Origin: a virus
Virus record (IMG/VR): IMGVR_UViG_3300030117_001754
Coordinates: 1-32,978 of that record
Direction: 5' to 3' (one strand)
DNA length: 32,978 bases
Shown here: positions 1,924 to 32,978 of the stretch, piece by piece
Position numbering within the stretch: the first letter of the stretch is position 1
Layout of the letters: the number at the start of each line of letters is the position of its first letter
Made by a program: the position numbers and the translations under genes
Notes under the pieces: model-generated
The model's input: only the letters and a program-made list of their open reading frames with translations
Told to the model about the DNA's origin: nothing
The model's database searches: none

Positions 1924-4919
1924 TATCGCCTCTTCCCGGTTTCTTTAAAAAGTTCATCCATTTCGTCTATTCTGTTTTTTATTTTTGGGTTTAATTGAAA
2001 AAACTTTTGTTTTCCAACAGACTTATACTGCGACACAACATTTTTAAATTGTTTTATTTGTTGCCCTACTGGCAGTCCCAAAAATGTTTCGTTTTTTATC
2101 AAAACATTTAATCTCCCTAAAAGAGTATCTCCATTTCCTTTAGGGTCATTCATTAGTTTAATCATTTGGTTGTATTCTTCAACACTCAAATATATGCCTT
2201 GTATTTTACGGTCAGGCATCCTTATTCCAAATCCATACTTAATCATAAAATCGTCAACAGCATTAAATTTTGTGTCAACTACTTTAAACGGTGAAATGAT
2301 AGTCCCTTTTGCACCCGTTACTTCTTCTCCCCACAAGTTTAACAACGGTGGCAACTCTTTGTTTATAAATGGATTATCTTTTTGCATTTTGTTTAACTCT
2401 TCATAAAAAGCTATAGTCGCTTGAGATATATTTAGGTCGGAATCTCGGAGTGCGTTTACTTGGTCTTGAGACAATCCTTTGTCGTAAATTTTTGGGTCAT
2501 TCATTTTTTCTATGTATCGTCCCATGCTGCCCATTGGGTTTATGTATGGTGAACCAACAGCCATAATTTTTTTGATAAAAAAAGAACTAAACGCATCTAA
2601 CTTATTATCTTCATTGCTGTACTCAAACCTTTGGAACGCAGATTTAAAATCACTAAATATAGTCAAAAACGGTTGTTCAGTTAAATACGGTACAATGGCA
2701 GTTATTGCTGAACCTACTAATTTTAATGATTTCTCATCCCATGTATCTGCATCTCCCCATTGACCCGGATGATGTAATGCTTGAGCTGTATCTGCTGCAA
2801 TCGCAAGCAATGCACTTATTGGTTCAAACCTAGAATAAGAAATACATTGAAAGTTGCCTGCATCTTTTTTTGTGCAAATAGAATATGCTTGTATGCCTTT
2901 CCTTTGGTAGGCCTCACGTTTTGCTCTATTGTATGGTAAGTGTCCAGTTATAAAAAACCCACCATCATTAACCTCGCCACCATCATACGTCATCATAGCA
3001 AAACTTGACATGATGCTTGTACCAGTAAGCAACCTTGCGTGGGATAACTGCATAGCCCGTTTTCCGTTTCTACCTAAAAAATCATCTCTCTGTTTTTTTG
3101 TCATCCACGCTAGAACTGGATTTCTTTTTGCTTGTTCCAAAAATATGTTTGTTACTGTTTTATAAAATGGTACAAATACTTTGAAACCCGGATGGTTTAA
3201 AGTTTGCTGAAAATCTTTTAAAAAACCCTCTGGCAAATCTCCTTGAAATGTTCCTGTCAACCCTTCCTGTTTAATTATATTTTGGTCTGCTACCGTAGGG
3301 TCAGTCATTACTTTGTAGGCTGCTGCTTGGGCCTGTTCATCTGTCCCACCTGTATTAATAACTTCATTGTATCTTCTGCGTGCTAATTGTTTTTGAGCTA
3401 TCACATACAATGCACCTTTTGTCATTTCGTCTGACGCTACAAGAAATGTACCGGGCAACCTTGCGATATGACCATAAGCATTTAAAGTTTTGCCCATAGC
3501 ATATTTAAGTTTGTTGTTTGGGTCTTTCCATGAGGGGTGTAATACATCCGTACTAACTGCCCTATGACTTCCTAAATCAAGTTTGCTTTCAGGTGCTACT
3601 CCACCTCTTTTAACTGAATCTATAAAATACTCACCAGCAACTTTGTTTGCATCTTTAAAATTATAAAAAAGTTCCATAGCCTCACTAAACATCACTCCGT
3701 CTGGGTCTTTGTATCCGGGTATTTTGTTAAGACCTGATGCAATAAAGTTTTCGGTATAACGTAAAGAATTAAAGGCCATGTTTGATACAAAATTTACAAC
3801 ATGAGTTATTGGTGATGCTAGTAAGCTGTTTACAAAAACCTCGATGCCTCCATCTACAATTTTTCTAAACATACCTTTCTGAACCATGTCAGATTGCTTA
3901 TTTAATGGCAAAGCTAAAAAGCGTTTGTGATAAGATAACATGTCTGCTGGGTCGGCATCGTTAAGAACTTTGATGCTCTCTAAAACTGTGCTTAATTCGT
4001 CTGTGTCAATCTTACCAAAAGTTTGATTTGCCAAGGATGTTGCTCTTAACTTTCGTGCAGTTTCAGATACGTCCCCGGTAATTTTAGATAAGAACAAACC
4101 ATACAGCCTAAAGTATTTGTTTGCTTTTTCAAGTAGTTCACGATTGTTTGGGTCAGCTTTTAAATCTTCTATTGATTTTATATACAGTTTTCTCATAACA
4201 AGGGATTCTTCTATACCCTTATAGATTTCTGCATTTGACAATAAATCTCCTTCCTTTCTTTTTAAAACTTTTCTATACAAATCAGGTAAGTTAAGGCCGT
4301 CAGCTATCTTTCTTAAATCATCATTTGTAACAGTTTTATTACCACCTTGTTGTTTTATGACATCTTCAAAAGAAAATTTTATTAAATCATCAAGATTGTC
4401 TATTTGGTCTGGGCCTCCTGAATCTAGTCTTTTAAAAATATCCTCAACATTGCCCTCAAGCTGTTCTATTGGAATGTCCTCAAACCTAGCCATAATACTG
4501 CTGAGTGCGTCATAATCAACATTATCGACAATATCCATGACAACTTGGCCTTGTTGTTCTTTGACTAATTGACCTTCTGGAATATTTCTATCGTCAAGAA
4601 TTTCCTCCATCTTTTGTTTTTTCTCTGCGGCAGTTTCCAAAGAATCCATACTAAAATCTTTTAAGTCATCTTGAGGAACTTTATCGCCTTTTATATCTTT
4701 TATTTGTGAGGTTTTGTCTTTGGTCTTTGTTGTGGTTATGGTTTCAAGAATATTTTTAATACCACCAGCTACTTCAATTCCTTCTTCTGGAATAGCATTT
4801 TGCTTTTCACTAACGTCTTGGATTTCTTTTTCTGTGGTGTCAATGGTAATGTCAACACGTTCTTTTAAAAGGTCGTCTGTATTAAGATTTTTTGTCGGAG
4901 GCGTTATGTCCTTTATCAT
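1923..4919 (-). CDS. large internal virion protein, gp16-position
   Basis: This 998-residue protein is the last large gene before the tail fibre, the place of the ejection protein gp16 in T7-like phages. Residues 1-110 are charged and low in complexity, suggesting a flexible lead. The middle is mostly helical. A stretch near residues 580-680 (VFVPFYKTVTNIFLEQAKRN, LTGTSIMSSFAMMTYDGG, FFITGHLPYNR) looks membrane-active and resembles the helical parts of phage ejection or polyvalent proteins. I see no lysozyme or transglycosylase motif, unlike T7 gp16. It starts by TAATG overlap with the upstream gene, so translation is probably coupled. Role in forming the DNA-ejection channel is inferred from position and size. 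Confidence 0.72.
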   Translation of the reverse strand: MIKDITPPTKNLNTDDLLKERVDITIDTTEKEIQDVSEKQNAIPEEGIEVAGGIKNILETITTTKTKDKTSQIKDIKGDKVPQDDLKDFSMDSLETAAEKKQKMEEILDDRNIPEGQLVKEQQGQVVMDIVDNVDYDALSSIMARFEDIPIEQLEGNVEDIFKRLDSGGPDQIDNLDDLIKFSFEDVIKQQGGNKTVTNDDLRKIADGLNLPDLYRKVLKRKEGDLLSNAEIYKGIEESLVMRKLYIKSIEDLKADPNNRELLEKANKYFRLYGLFLSKITGDVSETARKLRATSLANQTFGKIDTDELSTVLESIKVLNDADPADMLSYHKRFLALPLNKQSDMVQKGMFRKIVDGGIEVFVNSLLASPITHVVNFVSNMAFNSLRYTENFIASGLNKIPGYKDPDGVMFSEAMELFYNFKDANKVAGEYFIDSVKRGGVAPESKLDLGSHRAVSTDVLHPSWKDPNNKLKYAMGKTLNAYGHIARLPGTFLVASDEMTKGALYVIAQKQLARRRYNEVINTGGTDEQAQAAAYKVMTDPTVADQNIIKQEGLTGTFQGDLPEGFLKDFQQTLNHPGFKVFVPFYKTVTNIFLEQAKRNPVLAWMTKKQRDDFLGRNGKRAMQLSHARLLTGTSIMSSFAMMTYDGGEVNDGGFFITGHLPYNRAKREAYQRKGIQAYSICTKKDAGNFQCISYSRFEPISALLAIAADTAQALHHPGQWGDADTWDEKSLKLVGSAITAIVPYLTEQPFLTIFSDFKSAFQRFEYSNEDNKLDAFSSFFIKKIMAVGSPYINPMGSMGRYIEKMNDPKIYDKGLSQDQVNALRDSDLNISQATIAFYEELNKMQKDNPFINKELPPLLNLWGEEVTGAKGTIISPFKVVDTKFNAVDDFMIKYGFGIRMPDRKIQGIYLSVEEYNQMIKLMNDPKGNGDTLLGRLNVLIKNETFLGLPVGQQIKQFKNVVSQYKSVGKQKFFQLNPKIKNRIDEMDELFKETGKRR

Positions 4920-7255
4920 TAGTTGACTTCTCCTTCAAAGTCCAACCCTGAGCCTGTAAACCTTTGATTAATGCCTTTAGTTTCTCTTCCCTGCTTGAGG
5001 TCTTTGGTAACGCTATAAGTTCCACTTTCTTTGAGTTTTTTGATTGCATCTTCTGTTCCTATTGTTTCGTAATTTTCTAAATTAAAAATGCTAATTTGTT
5101 GCCCTTGTTTAGCAATATATAGAGCATCTTCTTGATTGTCAATTCTTACGGATGCGTCTAAATAAAATTTTTGGTCGTCTGGATTAAACCACGCTCCAGC
5201 ATAAACTTCGTCATATCTGCCTTCTAATGATTCGGTTAATTTTTCAACATTATCTAATAATTTTTCTGCATCTTCTACATCAAATGTTTTGCTATCAAAA
5301 ACTATTTCTGTTGTTTTTAAAGGTGCAACCATAAAACCTTTGCTGTACCCTAACTCTTCTGGAGTTTTGCCATCTAAAGTTATAGAGAATCCTTCATCTT
5401 CTTTTAACTTTAATATAGCGTCATACAAGGTATTTGCTTGTTGACTTCTTATAGCACTCCTTTCTGTTTCAGATAAGCTGTCAACATTTTTTTCCTTTGT
5501 TTGAACTTCTGGCTGCCCTCGTAATCGTGTTGTGAGATTAGTTCCTGATACGAAATTTTCTGATTGTTCTGTGATTGGTTTTTGTCCTTGGACACCTGAG
5601 TTGTTGTTGATTTTTGCATAGCTGTTTACTCCTTTACTATTTTTCAATCTATTGTATACATTAATAGAGTTTTCGGCCTGCTGTATAACTTCTGGCGGGA
5701 TAAGTTTCCCAGTGTCTAGAAACCTAGATAACATTCTTCTGTTTGCGTTATCAACAGAAACATCTATATATACTAAGTCTACAGTATATCCATTAATTCG
5801 TAAATCACTAATTAACGCTTTTATTTTAGCATAATCTTTTCCTGTTTTAGGCAACACTATGTTTTGTCTGTCTTTTTTAGCCATTTCTAATGCTTGTTCT
5901 GTAAAGTCAGCACTTTCTTCATGTACCATACTTGCGTGCAAACCGTCTTGGTTTTCTGGCAATATTTTTTTAGCCTCGTCAACATCTATAATTACTGCTC
6001 CATTATCTATAGCAATATTGTCTGCAAAAGTGCTTTTTCCTGATGCTGGCAACCCTAACACAATCGTAGCTTTTTTTTCTTGTTTTAATAAACTTTTGTC
6101 ATAAGTCCTACCTAAATTTTCATACGCTATTTTTTTAGAGTTTTCGTAAAACTCTGCTCCGCCATTAGCAAACCCTTTATAAGAAACACCATTAACTATG
6201 TATTCTCTGTTATCTAAAAACTCTGGTTTACCATAATTAGGGTCATCAGCAGTTGGTTTGCCGCTCCTTGTTTCATCTATTAATCTGTTATATGTTTCGT
6301 TTTTTTTTATGTTTTCAATATTAAATGTTGGTTTATTGATTTCGTTTCTAAGAGCCTCTTTTTGTTCGTCTGTAACTGAGCTGCCTGCTGGTGGCACATC
6401 TCCTTGCGTAAACCCATCGCCTTGATTTTCTAACGCATCACCTTTGTTTTTAGCTTTTGCTATTAGTCTTATTGTAGGCACAAGTACCTCGGCTAAAACA
6501 CCTAAAGGACTATCGCCTATAATGTTTTTTAATTTTTGTTCAGCTACCCCTGCTGCGGTAGGGTCATTACTTACTGTTCCAACATACTCAACAATACCAC
6601 CAAATATTTGACCGCTAGTTTCCTCGTTTATATCAAAAGTGTCTTTTAAAAAAGTAGCAAAGTTGCCTTCATCTGATGGAGCAACGGCTGTAACTAAAGT
6701 TGATTCTGCTCCTAAACCTCTTAATATTGCTCCTTTTATCCCCGGTATTTTTACAATGTTGTCAAACATTTTGTAAATTGTAACACCCGGTACTAAGTAT
6801 TGGCCCAATACTTCGGTAATGTTGCCGTATGTTTCATTGTCGTATTTTAATAAACCCTCTTTTAATTTTTCGTGGGTAGCTTTGTATTTTGCGTTTTGCT
6901 CTATAAAATCTTGTTCATCTAATAAACCAAATTGAACAAAGCCAAGTCCTCCTAACTCTATAAGACTTCTTACAACAGATGTGCCAGCACTAAGAACAGC
7001 TTTTGCTGTGTCTGTTGTATATTCTGCTGCTGCTGTAACTCCAGTTGAAATTTCTTGCTTTAGACTGTCTAACCATGATTTGTTAGGGTCAGCATGCATA
7101 AATGTTTTTGTTTCTGGGTTATATTTTTTTTCCCCGGAAGGCAGAAAACCATGTATAGTAACGTCATACTCTTCTACATCGCCTTTCTCTATCATTTCGT
7201 CAAGTTCAAGACCCCTTAACATTTCTTGGTCATAGTCGCTAAACTCACTCATCAA
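4919..7255 (-). CDS. internal virion protein with embedded zeta-toxin-like P-loop kinase domain
   Basis: This 778-residue protein has three parts. Residues 1-300 are helical with hydrophobic stretches (AVLSAGTSVVRSLIELGG). Residues about 395-560 form a P-loop kinase domain like the zeta toxin family: beta strand KATIVLGLP, Walker A GLPASGKST near residue 403, IIDVDEAKKILPE, a helix ESADFTEQAL, and VDLVYIDVSVDNANRRMLSR as lid or arginine region. Residues about 600-770 form a globular domain (YSKGFMVAPLKTTEIVF, YDEVYAGAWFNPDDQKFYLD) of the kind found in mosaic polyvalent proteins of mobile elements. Known zeta toxins phosphorylate UDP-N-acetylglucosamine. Whether this one does is unknown. Its place among virion proteins suggests it is packaged and injected. 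Its first codons overlap the upstream gene by 11 bases. Confidence 0.75.
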   Translation of the reverse strand: MMSEFSDYDQEMLRGLELDEMIEKGDVEEYDVTIHGFLPSGEKKYNPETKTFMHADPNKSWLDSLKQEISTGVTAAAEYTTDTAKAVLSAGTSVVRSLIELGGLGFVQFGLLDEQDFIEQNAKYKATHEKLKEGLLKYDNETYGNITEVLGQYLVPGVTIYKMFDNIVKIPGIKGAILRGLGAESTLVTAVAPSDEGNFATFLKDTFDINEETSGQIFGGIVEYVGTVSNDPTAAGVAEQKLKNIIGDSPLGVLAEVLVPTIRLIAKAKNKGDALENQGDGFTQGDVPPAGSSVTDEQKEALRNEINKPTFNIENIKKNETYNRLIDETRSGKPTADDPNYGKPEFLDNREYIVNGVSYKGFANGGAEFYENSKKIAYENLGRTYDKSLLKQEKKATIVLGLPASGKSTFADNIAIDNGAVIIDVDEAKKILPENQDGLHASMVHEESADFTEQALEMAKKDRQNIVLPKTGKDYAKIKALISDLRINGYTVDLVYIDVSVDNANRRMLSRFLDTGKLIPPEVIQQAENSINVYNRLKNSKGVNSYAKINNNSGVQGQKPITEQSENFVSGTNLTTRLRGQPEVQTKEKNVDSLSETERSAIRSQQANTLYDAILKLKEDEGFSITLDGKTPEELGYSKGFMVAPLKTTEIVFDSKTFDVEDAEKLLDNVEKLTESLEGRYDEVYAGAWFNPDDQKFYLDASVRIDNQEDALYIAKQGQQISIFNLENYETIGTEDAIKKLKESGTYSVTKDLKQGRETKGINQRFTGSGLDFEGEVN

Positions 7256-20561: not shown

Positions 20562-20997
20562 CCACTACCTCTGCGTCTATTGGTTCTGGGCCTTGCATCA
20601 CAATACCCACCACCGATGGTTTATCGATATCTTCTTGCTGTTCAAGCAAACCTGCTGCTTTGGCAAGGATTCGCAATACTGCCACCTTATCGTGCATTTC
20701 AACCTCTAACTGTGGCCCTGCCTTAGTAGGTGTTACCTTTATCTTTTTAATGGCCTTAATGGCCGAATCAGAGAGCGAGAGAGCGTCTTTGACAAAGACA
20801 TTACCTGCCTCATCCCAAGATACCACATCAGTGATGTTTGCAGTGCCAATCGCAATCAACTCTTTTGCTACAGCCTCTTTGTTGTGTTCTATGGTTTCTG
20901 ACTTCTGTATACGCCTTTGCACAACACGTACGCCACCAAACCTATCCAACGGAGGCTTGACAATACGTTTCTTTTTTTTGTCAGAAGGGGATGTCAT
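20515..20997 (-). CDS. terS: terminase small subunit
   Basis: The ATG at 20997 gives 160 residues; a TTG at 21003 is a possible alternative. The N-terminus is basic (SDKKKKRIVKPPLDRF). The C-terminal half has SLSDSAIKAIKKIKVTPTKA followed by QLEVEMHDKVAVLRILAKAA and GLL, the recognised closing motif of phage small terminases. The small subunit binds the packaging site and loads the large subunit. It directly precedes the large subunit region, and the start lies within the end of the SSB-tip gene, a 17-base overlap. Confidence 0.8.
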   Translation of the reverse strand: MTSPSDKKKKRIVKPPLDRFGGVRVVQRRIQKSETIEHNKEAVAKELIAIGTANITDVVSWDEAGNVFVKDALSLSDSAIKAIKKIKVTPTKAGPQLEVEMHDKVAVLRILAKAAGLLEQQEDIDKPSVVGIVMQGPEPIDAEVVDGQHENGVVEETPNS

Positions 20998-21310
20998 CGT
21001 CAAAATCTTCTTTTCTAGTTTGTTCGTCTTTTAGGATGTTTTTGCTTTTGTGTATCGCCTCTCGTACGGTTTTATTTTTTTTTTGACCTGTGTTCTCAAA
21101 AACTCGAAAAAACGCTTTTTGGTCTCCTTTCCCGTAAGGCATTGCATCGTCTTTGCTGTAAACCTTAATGTCTAACGCTCCGTCTACATCCATATCGTTT
21201 TGGAAGTCTCTGCCTTGCCATACTTCGATAATGTAGAATCCGGGTGTCAAATGAATTTCTTTTCCTTCGTATACTGCAAAGGTTCTATTGCTGTACTTTG
21301 GGCCTGCCAT
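20981..21310 (-). CDS. DNA-metabolism protein with SSB-type C-terminal tip
   Basis: The ATG at 21310 follows GGAGACGAAAT and gives 109 residues. The body (NRTFAVYEGKEIHLTPGFYI, then VWQGRDFQNDMDVDGALD, KVYSKDDAMPYGKGDQKAFF) is beta-rich like an OB-type or small single-strand binding domain. A basic stretch follows, then the last eight residues read DFDDDIPF, the same acidic tip that ends bacterial SSB and docks host replication and repair proteins. Most likely it is a phage single-strand DNA-binding protein or a mimic of the SSB tip. The longer reading frame upstream (to 21397) has no ribosome site. Confidence 0.72.
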   Translation of the reverse strand: MAGPKYSNRTFAVYEGKEIHLTPGFYIIEVWQGRDFQNDMDVDGALDIKVYSKDDAMPYGKGDQKAFFRVFENTGQKKNKTVREAIHKSKNILKDEQTRKEDFDDDIPF

Positions 21311-21349
21311 ATTTCGTCTCCGTAAATGTTGCAAAAAAATTGCGTAATA

Positions 21350-21411
21350 CCCCCTATATATACGTGCGTGGTGGGGGGGGGATGTACCCGTATACAAAAA
21401 TAATTATTTTT
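21350..21411. other. G9 tract, C5/G hairpin and 16-bp perfect AT palindrome
   Basis: In the 187-base gap between the initiator stop and the SSB-tip gene lie C5 at 21350-21354, nine consecutive G at 21373-21381 able to pair with it, and a perfect palindrome AAAAATAATTATTTTT at 21396-21411. On the minus strand, a perfect TATAAT lies at 21436-21431 upstream of these, with a weak -35. The stretch probably holds transcription signals for the packaging genes. Confidence 0.45.
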
Positions 21412-21497: not shown

Positions 21498-22370
21498 TTA
21501 CCTTGGCATCTTAGTTGAGCGTGCTGCCTCGTCCAGTAATCGCTGCACATCTGACTTGCCTTGGTCTCTGTTGAATAACGCATCCTTAAAGAACATGATA
21601 GTGTTTGGTGCATCGCTGTATGGTTTATTATCCTTCTGCCATCTGATGCAATGCTTGATACGTTTAACTGCATACTCTGCATCAAGGCCTTTGTTCAGCC
21701 AACCTACAACTATCTCTACATGTTTTTCTGTATATTGTTTTCTTTGGCCGTATATTTCCTCTGTATATTTTATATACATCTTTATAATATATTTCGCCTT
21801 AGTATATATACTAGTGTTATCTTTGTTGTTATGTATGCACTCTGACTGCATACTTGAATATGCACTCTGAGTGAATATCTTCTTTTCCTTATGTTCTTTT
21901 ATACACAAGTTATCCACAGACTTATCCACAGGCTGCCTTCTCTTCGTAGGTAGTTTTGTTTTCTCAAATCCTTTTGGCCCGGCATGCACTTCTGGTTTCT
22001 CAGTAAAGTCTCGCTCCTCAGTCGTGGCCGTTGCTTTGGCTGTATCCTCGTCAATCTTCTCATCGAACACCATGTAGTATTTGTTGCCTTTGAGACCCGG
22101 ATGCTTTTTGGCGTAACGTAAATAATCCCACTCAATCAGTTTCTTTATGTGTCTGGATACGGTTGACTGGTTCAGGCCTAGCTGTTTGGCAATGGTACTC
22201 TGATTTGGCCAGCAAACGCCTTGTCTGGATGTGTACATACCAAGACAACAGTAGACCATGAAAGTAGCCTTATAATGCCGCATACGCTTATCTAGGATGG
22301 CTCTTTGTGGTATCACCAAGAAATGTCCGATGGTTTTGCCTGTACCGTATTCTTTTTTATCTTTTTTCAT
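21498..22370 (-). CDS. phage replication initiator (lambda O-like, winged-helix)
   Basis: ATG at 22370, two bases past the upstream stop, gives 290 residues; longer frames begin within the upstream gene. Residues 12-100 form a DNA-binding region with helix-turn-helix WPNQSTIAKQLGLNQSTVSR, then IEWDYLRYAKKHPG as the wing. A hydrophilic linker, residues 105-185, is encoded by DNA that carries three DnaA boxes and dyad repeats. Residues 190-270 form a second domain with IIKMYIKYTEEIYGQRKQYT and WLNKGLDAEYAVKRIKHCIR, similar to the conserved C-terminal part of phage initiators that recruit the helicase. As in lambda O, the origin seems to lie inside the gene. No helicase or loader is encoded in the window, so host DnaB is probably used. 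Confidence 0.75.
   Translation of the reverse strand: MKKDKKEYGTGKTIGHFLVIPQRAILDKRMRHYKATFMVYCCLGMYTSRQGVCWPNQSTIAKQLGLNQSTVSRHIKKLIEWDYLRYAKKHPGLKGNKYYMVFDEKIDEDTAKATATTEERDFTEKPEVHAGPKGFEKTKLPTKRRQPVDKSVDNLCIKEHKEKKIFTQSAYSSMQSECIHNNKDNTSIYTKAKYIIKMYIKYTEEIYGQRKQYTEKHVEIVVGWLNKGLDAEYAVKRIKHCIRWQKDNKPYSDAPNTIMFFKDALFNRDQGKSDVQRLLDEAARSTKMPR
21720..21930. other. candidate replication origin inside initiator gene
   Basis: The segment combines three perfect DnaA boxes (TTATACACA at 21899-21907, TTATCCACA at 21910-21918 and 21922-21930), all in the same orientation and 11-12 bp apart, so on one face of the helix. Next come two copies of TATGCACTCTGA at 21834-21845 and 21859-21870, the first within a dyad. 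Then comes a very AT-rich stretch, about 21720-21830, containing the palindrome AGTATATATACT. This order of DnaA boxes, initiator repeats and melting region is that of a theta origin. Confidence 0.68.
21833..21853. repeat. dyad GTATGCA-N7-TGCATAC (initiator-site candidate)
   Basis: Inverted arms GTATGCA and TGCATAC surround seven bases. The core TATGCACTC, TG, ACTGCATA differs from the palindrome in the divergent control region (22675-22693, read on the minus strand) only by the two extra bases TG. A 12-bp direct repeat of the left arm lies at 21859. Binding by the phage initiator is inferred. Confidence 0.6.
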
Positions 22371-22372
22371 AC

Positions 22373-22645
22373 TCAGGGCCACATCTTCTTTGAAGGCATT
22401 CTCATTTTTAAATACGAAATAAAATAAAAAAGGTAATCTACATACCATTTTTCTTTGCCGAAATGTTTATACACTTCATAATGATTTCTGCCCTCAACGA
22501 TACAAGCAGAGTAATTTACTTCAACCCACTCTTCAGAACTGTTTTTTCTAGTAAATAGACAATCATCTAGCATTGTGTATTCACACTGATGTGGCTCGTA
22601 TGTAATTATTTCTATTTCTTTTTCTTTAAATTTATCTTTTTTCAT
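22373..22645 (-). CDS. 90-residue leader protein, unknown (weak ParB/Srx-like motif)
   Basis: This 90-residue protein is encoded just before the initiator, with a two-base gap between stop and next start. It begins with charged MKKDKFKEKEIEIITYEPHQ. The middle, VNYSACIVEGRNHYEVYKHF followed by GKEKWYV, resembles by eye the hairpin-plus-GERR pattern of ParB/sulfiredoxin-fold domains (residues 44-69). The remainder of such a domain is not evident, and the protein has no DNA-binding helix-turn-helix. The parS-like site lies 6 bases before its start codon. Function is unknown; autoregulation near that site is possible. Confidence 0.5.
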   Translation of the reverse strand: MKKDKFKEKEIEIITYEPHQCEYTMLDDCLFTRKNSSEEWVEVNYSACIVEGRNHYEVYKHFGKEKWYVDYLFYFISYLKMRMPSKKMWP

Positions 22646-22651
22646 AGTTTA

Positions 22652-22667
22652 TGTTTCACGTGGAACA
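22652..22667. promoter_or_regulatory. perfect parS site
   Basis: The plus strand reads TGTTTCACGTGGAACA. Its reverse complement, TGTTCCACGTGAAACA, matches all fixed positions of the bacterial chromosomal ParB site TGTTNCACGTGAAACA. It sits between divergent transcription units, and no complete ParB or ParA gene is seen in the window. Host ParB would be the obvious binder. It could also serve as an operator. Confidence 0.85.
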
Positions 22668-22674
22668 ATTATTT

Positions 22675-22693
22675 TTATGCAGTGAGTGCATAA
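22675..22693. promoter_or_regulatory. 19-bp palindromic operator candidate
   Basis: TTATGCAGTGAGTGCATAA has perfect 7-bp arms, TTATGCA and TGCATAA, around GTGAG. It lies 8 bases from the parS site and 28 bases before the first early -35 box. Its minus-strand form nearly equals the origin dyad at 21833-21853, suggesting one protein binds both. Confidence 0.6.
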
Positions 22694-26010: not shown

Positions 26011-26208
26011 ATGACAAATAAAATACTGGTTCGAGAAATAAATGCTTTAAAAAATCAATCCGTTATAGAGTTTCTAGACTGGTTGTTAAACAATGGCAAA
26101 CTTGACCTTCTCCAAAAAGTTAGCCAAGAATTACATGACCAAGCATTAGAAAGAATAATTGATAGAACTCAAGACGTAGACAAAATTATAGAACGAGGCA
26201 AAGTGTAA
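26011..26208 (+). CDS. small helical protein coupled to recombinase
   Basis: This 65-residue protein, MTNKILVREINALKNQSVIE and then FLDWLLNNGKLDLLQKVSQE, is entirely helical. Its stop overlaps the start of the serine recombinase (TAATG), so the two are translated together. A partner or modulator role for the recombinase is possible but has no direct support. Confidence 0.58.
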   Translation: MTNKILVREINALKNQSVIEFLDWLLNNGKLDLLQKVSQELHDQALERIIDRTQDVDKIIERGKV

Positions 26209-26864
26209 TGCAGAATAAATACGTAGGTTATGTAAGAGTATCAACCAAACGCCAAGGCAAAGATGGTCTTGGTGCTGATGCACAACGTGAGATAATAAAA
26301 CAGTATGTTGCTAACAACACCGGGGAGTTGTTGGGTATTTTTGCAGAACAGGAAAGTGGTAAAAAAACCAAGAGACCTGAACTTGAAAGTGCAATCATGT
26401 TAGCAAAAAAAGAAAACGCTACTCTCGTTATAGCCAAGTTAGACCGACTAGCGAGAAATGTATATTTTACTGCAAAACTTATGAACAGTGGTGTTGACTT
26501 TGTTTGTTGCGATATGCCACATGCGAACAAAATGACTATTTATATTCTTGCTGCTGTTGCCGAGGATGAGAGAGAACGTATCAGTGCAAGAACTAAAGCA
26601 GCACTTGCCCAAAAGAAAAAACGTGGTGAGCCTTTAGGCAATAAAAATATAACGGCCATGGGGATTGTCGGAAACGCTGCAAAGAAAAGATATGCAGATA
26701 AACATGCAAAAAATATTATGCCTGTCATATCTGAATTGAAATCAGTAGGACTTAACACTCTTGCTGATATTGCTGATGGATTAAATAAACGTGGCATCCC
26801 TACAGCGAGAGGTGGCAAATGGCACGCCTCAACGGTAAGCAATATTTTTAAAAGGGCAGCCTAA
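26208..26864 (+). CDS. serine recombinase (resolvase/invertase family)
   Basis: This 218-residue enzyme has the small serine recombinase domain in residues 4-140: YVRVST with catalytic Ser12 and Arg10, LGADAQREII, the arginines of AKLDRLARN (Arg80, Arg83), and the E-helix region AEDERERISARTKAAL. Residues 150-218 form a helix-turn-helix end with LADIADGLNKRGIPTARGGK then WHASTVSNIF. All key residues are present. It is the size of a resolvase or invertase rather than of a large serine integrase. Multimer resolution or DNA inversion is more likely than integration, though some small enzymes integrate. No res, gix or attP site was identified by eye. Confidence 0.88.
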   Translation: MQNKYVGYVRVSTKRQGKDGLGADAQREIIKQYVANNTGELLGIFAEQESGKKTKRPELESAIMLAKKENATLVIAKLDRLARNVYFTAKLMNSGVDFVCCDMPHANKMTIYILAAVAEDERERISARTKAALAQKKKRGEPLGNKNITAMGIVGNAAKKRYADKHAKNIMPVISELKSVGLNTLADIADGLNKRGIPTARGGKWHASTVSNIFKRAA

Positions 26865-27184: not shown

Positions 27185-27893
27185 AAAAACAGCCGACAAA
27201 AAGAAAGACGATATACGCAGTAAAAGTCTTGTCGAAAAAATGTTTTACGTGAAAAATAACTTACCCAACTTATTAGAGGATTTACAAATCGGTAGTTATA
27301 CTGCTATCAGTCATGGTGCAGTTACAAAGGTAGTTGCCAAACCAATGAAAGAGGCAGGTATTTTTTATCTACCACAATGTATCAATACAGTACAGGATGG
27401 CAACAGAACTGAATGTACTATGCGTATAACATTTACGAATGTAGACAACCCTAGCGAACATTTCACTGTTGGCGATTACGTTGGTTACGGAATAGATAAA
27501 TCCGACAAAGGACCGGGAAAAGCAATATCGTATGGCATCAAATATATTTTGCTTAAAACTTTTGGTGTTTTACTTGGCGATGAGGATGAGGAGAACACGA
27601 GTGCAGATGAGAGCGAATTAGAGAACCCGGAGGCGAAAACTGAGAAGTCGAATGAAGAGAAGGCTCGTGATTCAGCAAAAGTAATTTACAGAGAAGTAAA
27701 GGAAAAAGCAAAACATTTAGATATGTATTCTCTAAACGATTATTGGAATAGACTACTTGATGATAAGAAGAGTAGCATAGAATTTATTAAACTTCATAGC
27801 AAAGATACACACGAACAACTGCTAAATGCAGTGCGTGATATGATTACAGCTAAAGCAAAGGAGGCAGAAAAAAATGACACCAGCACAACATAA
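27171..27893 (+). CDS. erf: ERF-family single-strand annealing protein
   Basis: ATG at 27171 has AGGAGG 6 bases upstream and gives 240 residues. A longer frame exists to 27063 but lacks a ribosome site. The domain at about residues 20-145 has SLVEKMFYVKNNLPNLLEDL, KPMKEAGIFYLPQ, TFTNVDNPSEHFTVGDYVGY and the family-typical GPGKAISYGIKYILLKTFGV followed by LGDEDEE. ERF proteins anneal complementary single strands, in phage recombination and genome circularisation. The C-terminal part is an acidic linker and a helical tail. With the SSB-tip protein it forms a plausible recombination pair. Confidence 0.85.
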   Translation: MSETKKTADKKKDDIRSKSLVEKMFYVKNNLPNLLEDLQIGSYTAISHGAVTKVVAKPMKEAGIFYLPQCINTVQDGNRTECTMRITFTNVDNPSEHFTVGDYVGYGIDKSDKGPGKAISYGIKYILLKTFGVLLGDEDEENTSADESELENPEAKTEKSNEEKARDSAKVIYREVKEKAKHLDMYSLNDYWNRLLDDKKSSIEFIKLHSKDTHEQLLNAVRDMITAKAKEAEKNDTSTT

Positions 27894-28086
27894 GGTTTTA
27901 CAAATTATTCAGAACTATATCAATGAAAACGGGTACTCTCCAACTCTTGAAGAGATAGGCAAAGAGAATGGTACGACAAAACAAAACGTAAGTCGTCTCG
28001 TACAAAAATTACAGGACGAAGGACGTATCTTTGTACAAAGGGGAAAAACCAGAGGTATAACCGTTACTGGTTTGATTCATCTCTAA
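27874..28086 (+). CDS. stand-alone LexA-type winged-helix DNA-binding protein
   Basis: This 70-residue protein lines up with the DNA-binding domain of LexA over its full length: MTPAQHKVLQIIQNYINENG, then YSPTLEEIGKENGTTKQNVS and RLVQKLQDEGRIF with RGKTRGI as the wing. The autocleavage peptidase domain of LexA is missing. It could repress SOS genes or its own phage promoters without being inactivated by RecA. AAAGGAGGC precedes the ATG, which overlaps the ERF gene by 20 bases. Confidence 0.82.
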   Translation: MTPAQHKVLQIIQNYINENGYSPTLEEIGKENGTTKQNVSRLVQKLQDEGRIFVQRGKTRGITVTGLIHL

Positions 28087-31862: not shown

Positions 31863-32978
31863 CTATGATTGTGCTAAAAGTTCTGCAAAAAAATCTGCAC
31901 CTAAACCACCCATGGCTGCGTTTTGTCCTGTCGTCATACCAGTTTGGTCAGTATTTAATCCATAACGGAAACCATTATCTCCCAAATTGGTAAAGGATAC
32001 AGTTGTCGTTGCACCACTTCCACCCACTAATGCTATAAAACTTGTAGCATTTGCAGTTAAAGTTGGTGATACTCGCATGGTTCTTCTTAGTTGTGGTGTA
32101 GCTTGAATTTGTGTTGAAGTTGCTATATGCCCTGTTGGATTTAATCCACCTTCAACATCAGTTCCGGGAATAAAATATCTATGACAAGTTAGTAATACAT
32201 CAGAAAATTCTTGAAATTGAAATGGTGGCATTGTTGCACTTGTAAACTCACCTATTTCTAATTGAACTCCTGTTAAAAACCATTCATTAGAAGTACTGTC
32301 TGCTAAATTTACATTTGAGCCAGATACCCTGTTGGCACTAGTACTTGATGCCCAAGATGATGAATTTAATGTTCCACTATTATAGGTGCTACCTGAACCG
32401 AGCCACCAATTAATAACAAAACTTTCATTTACATCATCATTTAATGACCCTGTGGTATCTGCTGGTACATTGATTATTTTTTCTTCCCAAGTATTTGCAC
32501 TATCAATAGTATAAGTTTTTGATATCTGTCTTGAATTATCAGCATCAAAAAATTCTACTGTATATGTCCCAGTTTTATTACTTTTAACATAAAATTTTAA
32601 AGTAAGTTTTTCAGCATTACTTGTACCTTTTTTAAAAATTTGTAAATCTCTGCCTTCAAATGATTGTCTTATCAATCCAAAATCACCAGCACCTAAACTG
32701 GTATCTGCTGTTGTGCAATCTAATTTTAATGATTTTTTGTCAAACCCTGTACCTGCTGGCCCATTAGTATCTTGGCTCATTGACCAAGTGCCAAACGTCC
32801 CAAACTGCGTACAGAATCTATCGCAAACATATTGATTGCCTGTAATGCCTGTTTTGTTTCCATAATTAGCTACTTGCATAGCTCCATTATGAATCAAAGG
32901 TGTTACATTTGGTCTTACAGGTTGACCAAAACCTGTGGCTGTACCATTGTTGGTAATCGTTGCTCCTGATGCAATATT
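31863..32978 (-). CDS. tail fibre protein, C-terminal part (runs off right end)
   Basis: The frame is open from the right edge to TGA-type stop at 31863 and gives 372 codons. Residues near the edge (VRPNVTPLIHNGAMQVANYG) match the left-end fibre with four substitutions in 131. The remainder is a beta-rich carbohydrate-binding-like domain (TLKFYVKSNKTGTYTVEFFD, WLTGVQLEIGEF) ending in ATMPPFQFQEFSDVLLTCHR and a Gly-rich tip. The LEIGEFAT..PFE.... signature is common at distal ends of marine phage fibres. If the ends join, it completes the fibre whose start is at 1923. Otherwise it belongs to a second fibre. Confidence 0.85.
   Translation of the reverse strand, partial: NIASGATITNNGTATGFGQPVRPNVTPLIHNGAMQVANYGNKTGITGNQYVCDRFCTQFGTFGTWSMSQDTNGPAGTGFDKKSLKLDCTTADTSLGAGDFGLIRQSFEGRDLQIFKKGTSNAEKLTLKFYVKSNKTGTYTVEFFDADNSRQISKTYTIDSANTWEEKIINVPADTTGSLNDDVNESFVINWWLGSGSTYNSGTLNSSSWASSTSANRVSGSNVNLADSTSNEWFLTGVQLEIGEFTSATMPPFQFQEFSDVLLTCHRYFIPGTDVEGGLNPTGHIATSTQIQATPQLRRTMRVSPTLTANATSFIALVGGSGATTTVSFTNLGDNGFRYGLNTDQTGMTTGQNAAMGGLGADFFAELLAQS
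32586..32978. repeat. right copy of imperfect terminal repeat
   Basis: This is the counterpart of 1-393, at the same frame and without indels. The two copies differ at eight positions clustered near the two ends of the overlap. Bases beyond the repeat on either side are not shared within the window. Confidence 0.9.

Follow-up and report, generated by a model that had tools for sequence, protein, structure and literature searches.

Where does a phage with T7-like capsid genes, in which no DNA polymerase gene was found, begin to copy its genome? The question is raised by the IMG/VR virus record IMGVR_UViG_3300030117_001754, which was analysed over its whole length of 32,978 bases, here referred to as the window. 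A first-pass annotation had placed a likely theta origin at positions 21720-21930, inside the gene for a lambda O-like replication initiator, and had suggested that the phage needs host DnaA. We estimate, with a probability of roughly three in four, that the segment 21750-21930 is a replication origin of the lambda type, embedded in the gene for the O-like initiator that would fire it and composed of DnaA boxes, iterons, and a melting region (Table 1). This assignment is based on patterns in the DNA of the phage and its relatives.

The relationship of the initiator to lambda O is supported by matches to O-like PHROG families and to PF13730, and it is a distant one (PHROG E-value about 1e-10). 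The protein consists of a predicted N-terminal winged helix (HTH_36), a disordered linker and a helical C-terminal domain. The linker corresponds to residues 117-182, which had a predicted local distance difference test score (pLDDT) below 50 in an AlphaFold model, and is encoded at approximately 21825-22022; the model was of modest quality (pLDDT 65) and served only to place the linker.

Exact matches to the DnaA box consensus TTATNCACA were found at three sites only when both strands of the whole window were searched. All three were located on the plus strand within 21899-21930, which is the strand opposite to the initiator gene, and the starts of the boxes were separated by 11 and 12 bp, or approximately one helical turn. 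The boxes are clustered and phased, as in a DnaA-assisted origin. The three matches in the same orientation described in the first-pass annotation are thus real, but they fill only the last 32 bp of the span assigned to them. Under an order-2 Markov model, 1.7 exact sites were expected per window, 300 simulations yielded neither a triplet nor a close pair, and the expected number of such triplets was about 9e-7 per window. When the synonymous codons of the initiator gene were permuted with the protein sequence kept intact, three boxes were obtained in 0.15% of the trials (P 0.0015).

To place these boxes in a family context, relatives of the initiator were collected by 2 protein searches and 1 profile search of viral contigs. 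This yielded about 80 relatives on metagenomic fragments and, including the gene in the window, 81 unique initiator genes, of which those of sufficient length formed 17 clusters. DNA or initiator proteins similar to those in the window were found in none of the cultured phages, and no relatives of the initiator were confirmed in bacterial genomes.

The segment is under strong constraint that is independent of the protein, and it contains the DnaA boxes, 2 dyad iterons, a tract with the sequence CATAACAAC, and the DNA of lowest stability in the genome, listed here as they follow one another on the gene strand. In a codon alignment of 14 clusters, the z-scores for synonymous constraint were about 6 for the boxes and 9-19 for the dyads (9-13 for iteron 1 and 13-19 for iteron 2). 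The highest values were also reached by the CATAACAAC tract, where the codon identity was 0.91-0.99 as compared to the expected 0.48-0.50 (z 13-19), with 0.94-0.99 versus 0.49-0.50 where z rose to 19, and the z-score was still 8-10 in the AT-rich part. The constraint covers about 180 bp, reaching from the linker into helix 1 of the C-terminal domain, or approximately 21750-21940 in the window. The rest of the gene mostly had absolute z-scores below 4, apart from a single lesser peak (5-6) close to the C-terminus.

Dyad repeats had been noted beside the boxes, and they were resolved here into two 19-bp copies located 25 bp apart. Several of the relatives carry two or three dyads, with the half-sites ATGCA, ATTCA, or ATTCC and spacers of 5-7 bp. 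Most cluster representatives carry iteron dyads in the linker, at a density of 5.29 per kb in linkers versus 0.034 per kb elsewhere, a contrast for which the P value is optimistic, since the dyad pattern was derived from the very sites that were then counted; the synonymous test is free of this circularity. The long AT-rich stretch also held up. In a nearest-neighbour stability scan, the genome-wide stability minima for both 40- and 60-bp windows start at 21751-21752, beside the iterons. The boxes and the iterons are located in the linker-coding part of the gene, as had been claimed for the whole element, but the AT-rich stretch codes for helix 1 of the C-terminal domain.

Exact boxes were identified at the same place, and always in the same orientation, in 7 of the 17 cluster representatives. 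With one representative per cluster, we counted 10 boxes in 3.6 kb of linker sequence versus 3 in 148 kb outside the linkers. Permutation of the linker codons with the protein fixed gave an expectation of 0.87 boxes, and none of 2,000 permutations reached 10. The nearest relative, L002, which has an amino acid identity of 79%, has retained two of the three boxes, and in L089 and L091 the free N position of the box varies while the box itself has been retained.

At such an origin, initiator dimers would bind the 19-bp dyads via the winged helix, and host DnaA would bind the box triplet that flanks the element on its outer side, where it may assist in bending or opening the DNA and/or in bringing in the DnaB helicase of the host. 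Melting of the AT-rich stretch would follow, and host enzymes would copy the genome, probably as circles in the theta mode.

Several observations weigh against this reading. The minimum of the cumulative GC skew near 22.5 kb coincides with a switch in gene direction and the third-codon skew is flat; since the skew tracks gene orientation, the origin cannot be located by it. The skew was therefore uninformative as a check, and it lends no support to the theta mode, whereas the origin itself gains support from the synonymous constraint, the dyad iterons and the melting minimum. No P-like helicase loader was found among the 43 open reading frames, judged from the best 25 of 27 Pfam families and the best 25 of 63 PHROG families, although a divergent loader is possible. 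Lambda has four iterons, as compared to the two close dyads seen here. Furthermore, most relatives have no exact boxes, and in the L094 cluster the box is missing in four of the seven members (L095, L097, L099, and L100) due to a synonymous GTG/GTT difference. The loss of boxes by synonymous change in close relatives had been named as a test of their function, and the outcome was mixed, with two of three boxes retained in L002 and synonymous loss in one distant cluster. Because most relatives lack boxes, some of them by synonymous loss, DnaA may be helpful rather than essential. The proposed need for host DnaA has support in this lineage, in which the boxes exceed the protein-preserving expectation, but it is not fixed in the family.

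The same data bear on an alternative in which the iterons and the AT-rich stretch form a lambda-type origin that works without DnaA, the boxes being incidental or modestly helpful leftovers. Beyond the scarcity of boxes in the family, members within the L094, L011, and L054 clusters differ in box presence, and the peptide V-D-K/N makes the box easy to form. We nevertheless consider this unlikely in view of the excess of boxes over codon permutation, their shared place and orientation in seven clusters, the retention of two boxes in L002, and their persistence in L089 and L091 despite changes at the free position.

It is also conceivable, but improbable, that the conserved DNA has a regulatory function instead, as operators, an RNA element, or an antisense promoter in the gene. 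Strong synonymous constraint alone names no function, and a related dyad is located at a promoter region. On the other hand, dyads, a melting minimum, and DnaA boxes inside the gene for an O-like initiator make up the layout of the lambda origin. Promoter and terminator signals occurred no more often than by chance, and no promoter- or terminator-like match was obtained within 21750-21930, where no RNA-family search was made. Clusters of DnaA boxes can titrate DnaA, and the boxes might accordingly titrate or re-route host DnaA and interfere with host initiation instead of serving phage replication. This we regard as very improbable, given that there are only three sites, all at the conserved putative origin of the phage itself and none elsewhere in the genome. 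Chance or a protein-driven coincidence, to which the lineage-specific presence of the boxes might point, is barely credible and was largely refuted by the expected frequency of triplets and the protein-preserving permutation of this gene alone.

Table 1. Features of the proposed origin and its surroundings in the 32,978-base window
Feature	Positions	Strand	Basis
O-like replication initiator, 290 amino acids	21498..22370	-	PHROG 428/678/391 replication initiation, O-like; PF13730 E-value 1.2e-11
Three exact DnaA boxes	TTATACACA 21899-21907, TTATCCACA 21910-21918, TTATCCACA 21922-21930	+	exact consensus match
Iteron 1, 19-bp dyad TATTCACTCAGAGTGCATA (gene strand)	21859..21877		dyad repeat and synonymous constraint
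Iteron 2, 19-bp dyad TATGCAGTCAGAGTGCATA (gene strand), 25 bp from iteron 1	21834..21852		dyad repeat and synonymous constraint
Most conserved tract, CATAACAAC(N5)TAACA(AT-run) (gene strand), linking iterons to melting region	21783..21833		synonymous constraint
AT-rich stretch, probable DNA-unwinding element	21751..21810		nearest-neighbour stability scan
Small gene, 90 amino acids, directly upstream of initiator, same operon	22373..22645	-	open reading frame list; no family match
Iteron-like dyad TATGCACTCACTGCATA (minus strand), upstream of operon, probable operator	22676..22692		aligned counterparts in L003, L023, L057, L058
Perfect match to chromosomal parS consensus TGTTNCACGTGNAACA, beside probable operator dyad	22652..22667		consensus match
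Probable single-stranded-DNA-binding protein, C-terminus DDDIPF, downstream of initiator	20981..21397	-	tail motif and position

The proposed origin can be compared with known systems. The lambda origin is located in the O gene and consists of 19-bp inverted-repeat iterons followed by 40 bp of A+T-rich DNA (PMC5043065), and two sites resembling DnaA boxes, located downstream of pO, are protected by DnaA (PMC3985674). The window likewise contains a DNA-constrained element inside the initiator frame, with inverted-repeat iterons of about 19 bp and an adjacent, easily melted A+T-rich region; DnaA boxes are close by in both, and the host polymerase is used by lambda and probably also here. In contrast to lambda, the DnaA boxes directly adjoin the iterons, and a probable operator dyad resembling the iterons is located upstream. 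Iteron plasmids pair iterons with DnaA boxes, and one side of the A+T-rich region of RK2 carries no protein sites (PMC5043065). With such plasmids (RK2, P1, F, R6K, and pSC101) the phage shares iterons, DnaA boxes, and an A+T-rich element; it differs in that its repeats are dyads, as in lambda, and in that the origin is placed inside the initiator gene. By analogy, the element may best be described as a lambda-like origin with a plasmid-like DnaA-box flank, which makes it a variant and not a new kind of origin.

The dyad upstream of the operon is most simply interpreted as a probable operator that would let the initiator repress its own operon. An iteron-like operator dyad is also present at the rep promoter of iteron plasmids. 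Counterparts of the dyad are located upstream of the initiator in four relatives (Table 1), and a dyad within 400 bp upstream of the initiator was present in 3 of 14 representatives, as compared to 0.17 expected. The adjacent parS site reads TGTTTCACGTGGAACA in the window. Perfect or one-mismatch parS sites at most 1.6 kb upstream of the initiator were observed in the window, L023, and L054-L058, and these carriers belong to two of the three lineages that lack the DnaA domain-IV gene described below. No parS site was found in the other loci (574 kb) or in Methylophilales phage MEP301, and no ParB gene was found in the window; among viral DNA in general, at least 120 stretches contain the parS 16-mer.

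In most relatives, the gene located directly upstream of the initiator gene encodes a protein of 150-185 amino acids with the DnaA-box-binding domain (PF08299, E-values down to 3e-22), and this applies to most of the relatives without boxes. The N-terminal parts of these proteins are of other sequence (L006:4472-5008, L008:4487-5011, L066:2143-2697, L083:2396-2896, L106:4463-4999, and others). A gene with PF08299 was identified in 13 of the 20 whole records searched, in one of them weakly, and was absent from the window. According to the initiator tree, the domain-IV gene is missing in three separate ingroup lineages, represented by this phage with L002, by L023 with L054, and by L089; for L002, L060, L090, and L091, the upstream DNA is too short to show the gene. 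All three of these lineages have consensus boxes in the linker, in the L054 cluster in only two of six members, whereas among the clusters with the gene, boxes were found only in L011 (one of two members) and L094 (three of seven). Counted by cluster, boxes were present in 5/5 without the gene versus 2/8 with it (P ~0.016, calculated by hand), and counted by lineage in 3/3 versus 2/6 (P ~0.12). No shifted consensus was recovered in the relatives with the domain-IV gene, as no single-mismatch box recurs across their linkers.

The new idea suggested by this distribution is an exchange between host-type boxes and the phage domain-IV gene, which we present as a hypothesis and not as a result because the lineage-level count gives P ~0.12. 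Tentatively, DnaA-box recognition may be exchangeable, such that lineages with boxes use host DnaA, while the others use their own domain-IV protein and have mostly dropped the boxes; this phage and the L023/L054 lineage, with their host-type parS, would then imitate a host origin region. Short DnaA-like proteins in the pelagiphages HTVC204P and Skadi match the domain-IV protein of the relatives, but the stretches of these phages that were read have no annotated O-like initiator nearby.

The genome is complete or nearly so, at about 32.6 kb, because the frame of an 888-amino-acid tail-fibre protein stays open across the joined ends. At the two ends, 393 bases are shared apart from 8 mismatches (1-393 and 32586-32978). 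A terminal repeat as natural packaging end was rejected, since this imperfect overlap is located inside the read-through tail-fibre gene, and the overlap probably reflects a circular assembly of two strain variants. Genes for T7-like capsid assembly and connector proteins are present (PF05396 and PF12236). The nearest cultured relative of the virion is MEP301, a phage of OM43, with identities of 71% for the terminase, 64% for the connector, and 63% for the major capsid protein, and from this kinship of the virion proteins we infer an OM43-type host. The single-subunit RNA polymerase and DNA polymerase that are hallmarks of T7-type phages were not found: searches of the window for DNA polymerases A and B (DNA_pol_A, DNA_pol_B) and DnaB helicase were negative while the positive controls worked, and no RNA polymerase family was seen among the 43 open reading frames, the six-frame RNA_pol search having no positive control. 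A need for host DnaA had been called unusual for T7-like virions, which normally encode their own polymerase, but the lack of a polymerase has a precedent in MEP301, already reported to have neither an RNA polymerase nor a DNA polymerase (PMC8024684). MEP301 has no match to this initiator and no box cluster, but contains genes for YqaJ and RusA instead.

A single-stranded-DNA-binding gene is annotated in MEP301 at a place comparable to that of the probable binding protein in the window, which had no Pfam or PHROG match. A fold search with the initiator retrieved winged-helix proteins and the plasmid Rep protein RepE54 only at E-values above 0.03 and was not used as proof, and a sequence search of solved structures gave only a weak match to DMP12 (E-value 0.006), which was treated as chance. 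Elsewhere in the window, a 70-amino-acid protein with a LexA-type DNA-binding domain (27874-28086, PF01726, E-value 1.7e-9), a possible early regulator, is encoded downstream of the ERF gene. The gene at 26208-26864 specifies a short serine resolvase whose recombinase domain is truncated, and MEP301 also has one. The gene at 4919-7255, located among the virion genes, encodes a product of 778 amino acids with an ATPase/polynucleotide-kinase-like domain, and the open reading frames of the window included matches to zeta-toxin and AAA_33 kinase domains.

The segment 21750-21930 provides a concrete origin candidate for an uncultured family of marine podoviruses without a DNA polymerase of their own, and replication elements hidden in coding sequences can be mapped by synonymous constraint. 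If the exchange hypothesis is true, the DNA-binding domain of DnaA would be supplied by either the host or the virus at the same origin, which would indicate how phages gain and lose dependence on the initiation clock of the host.
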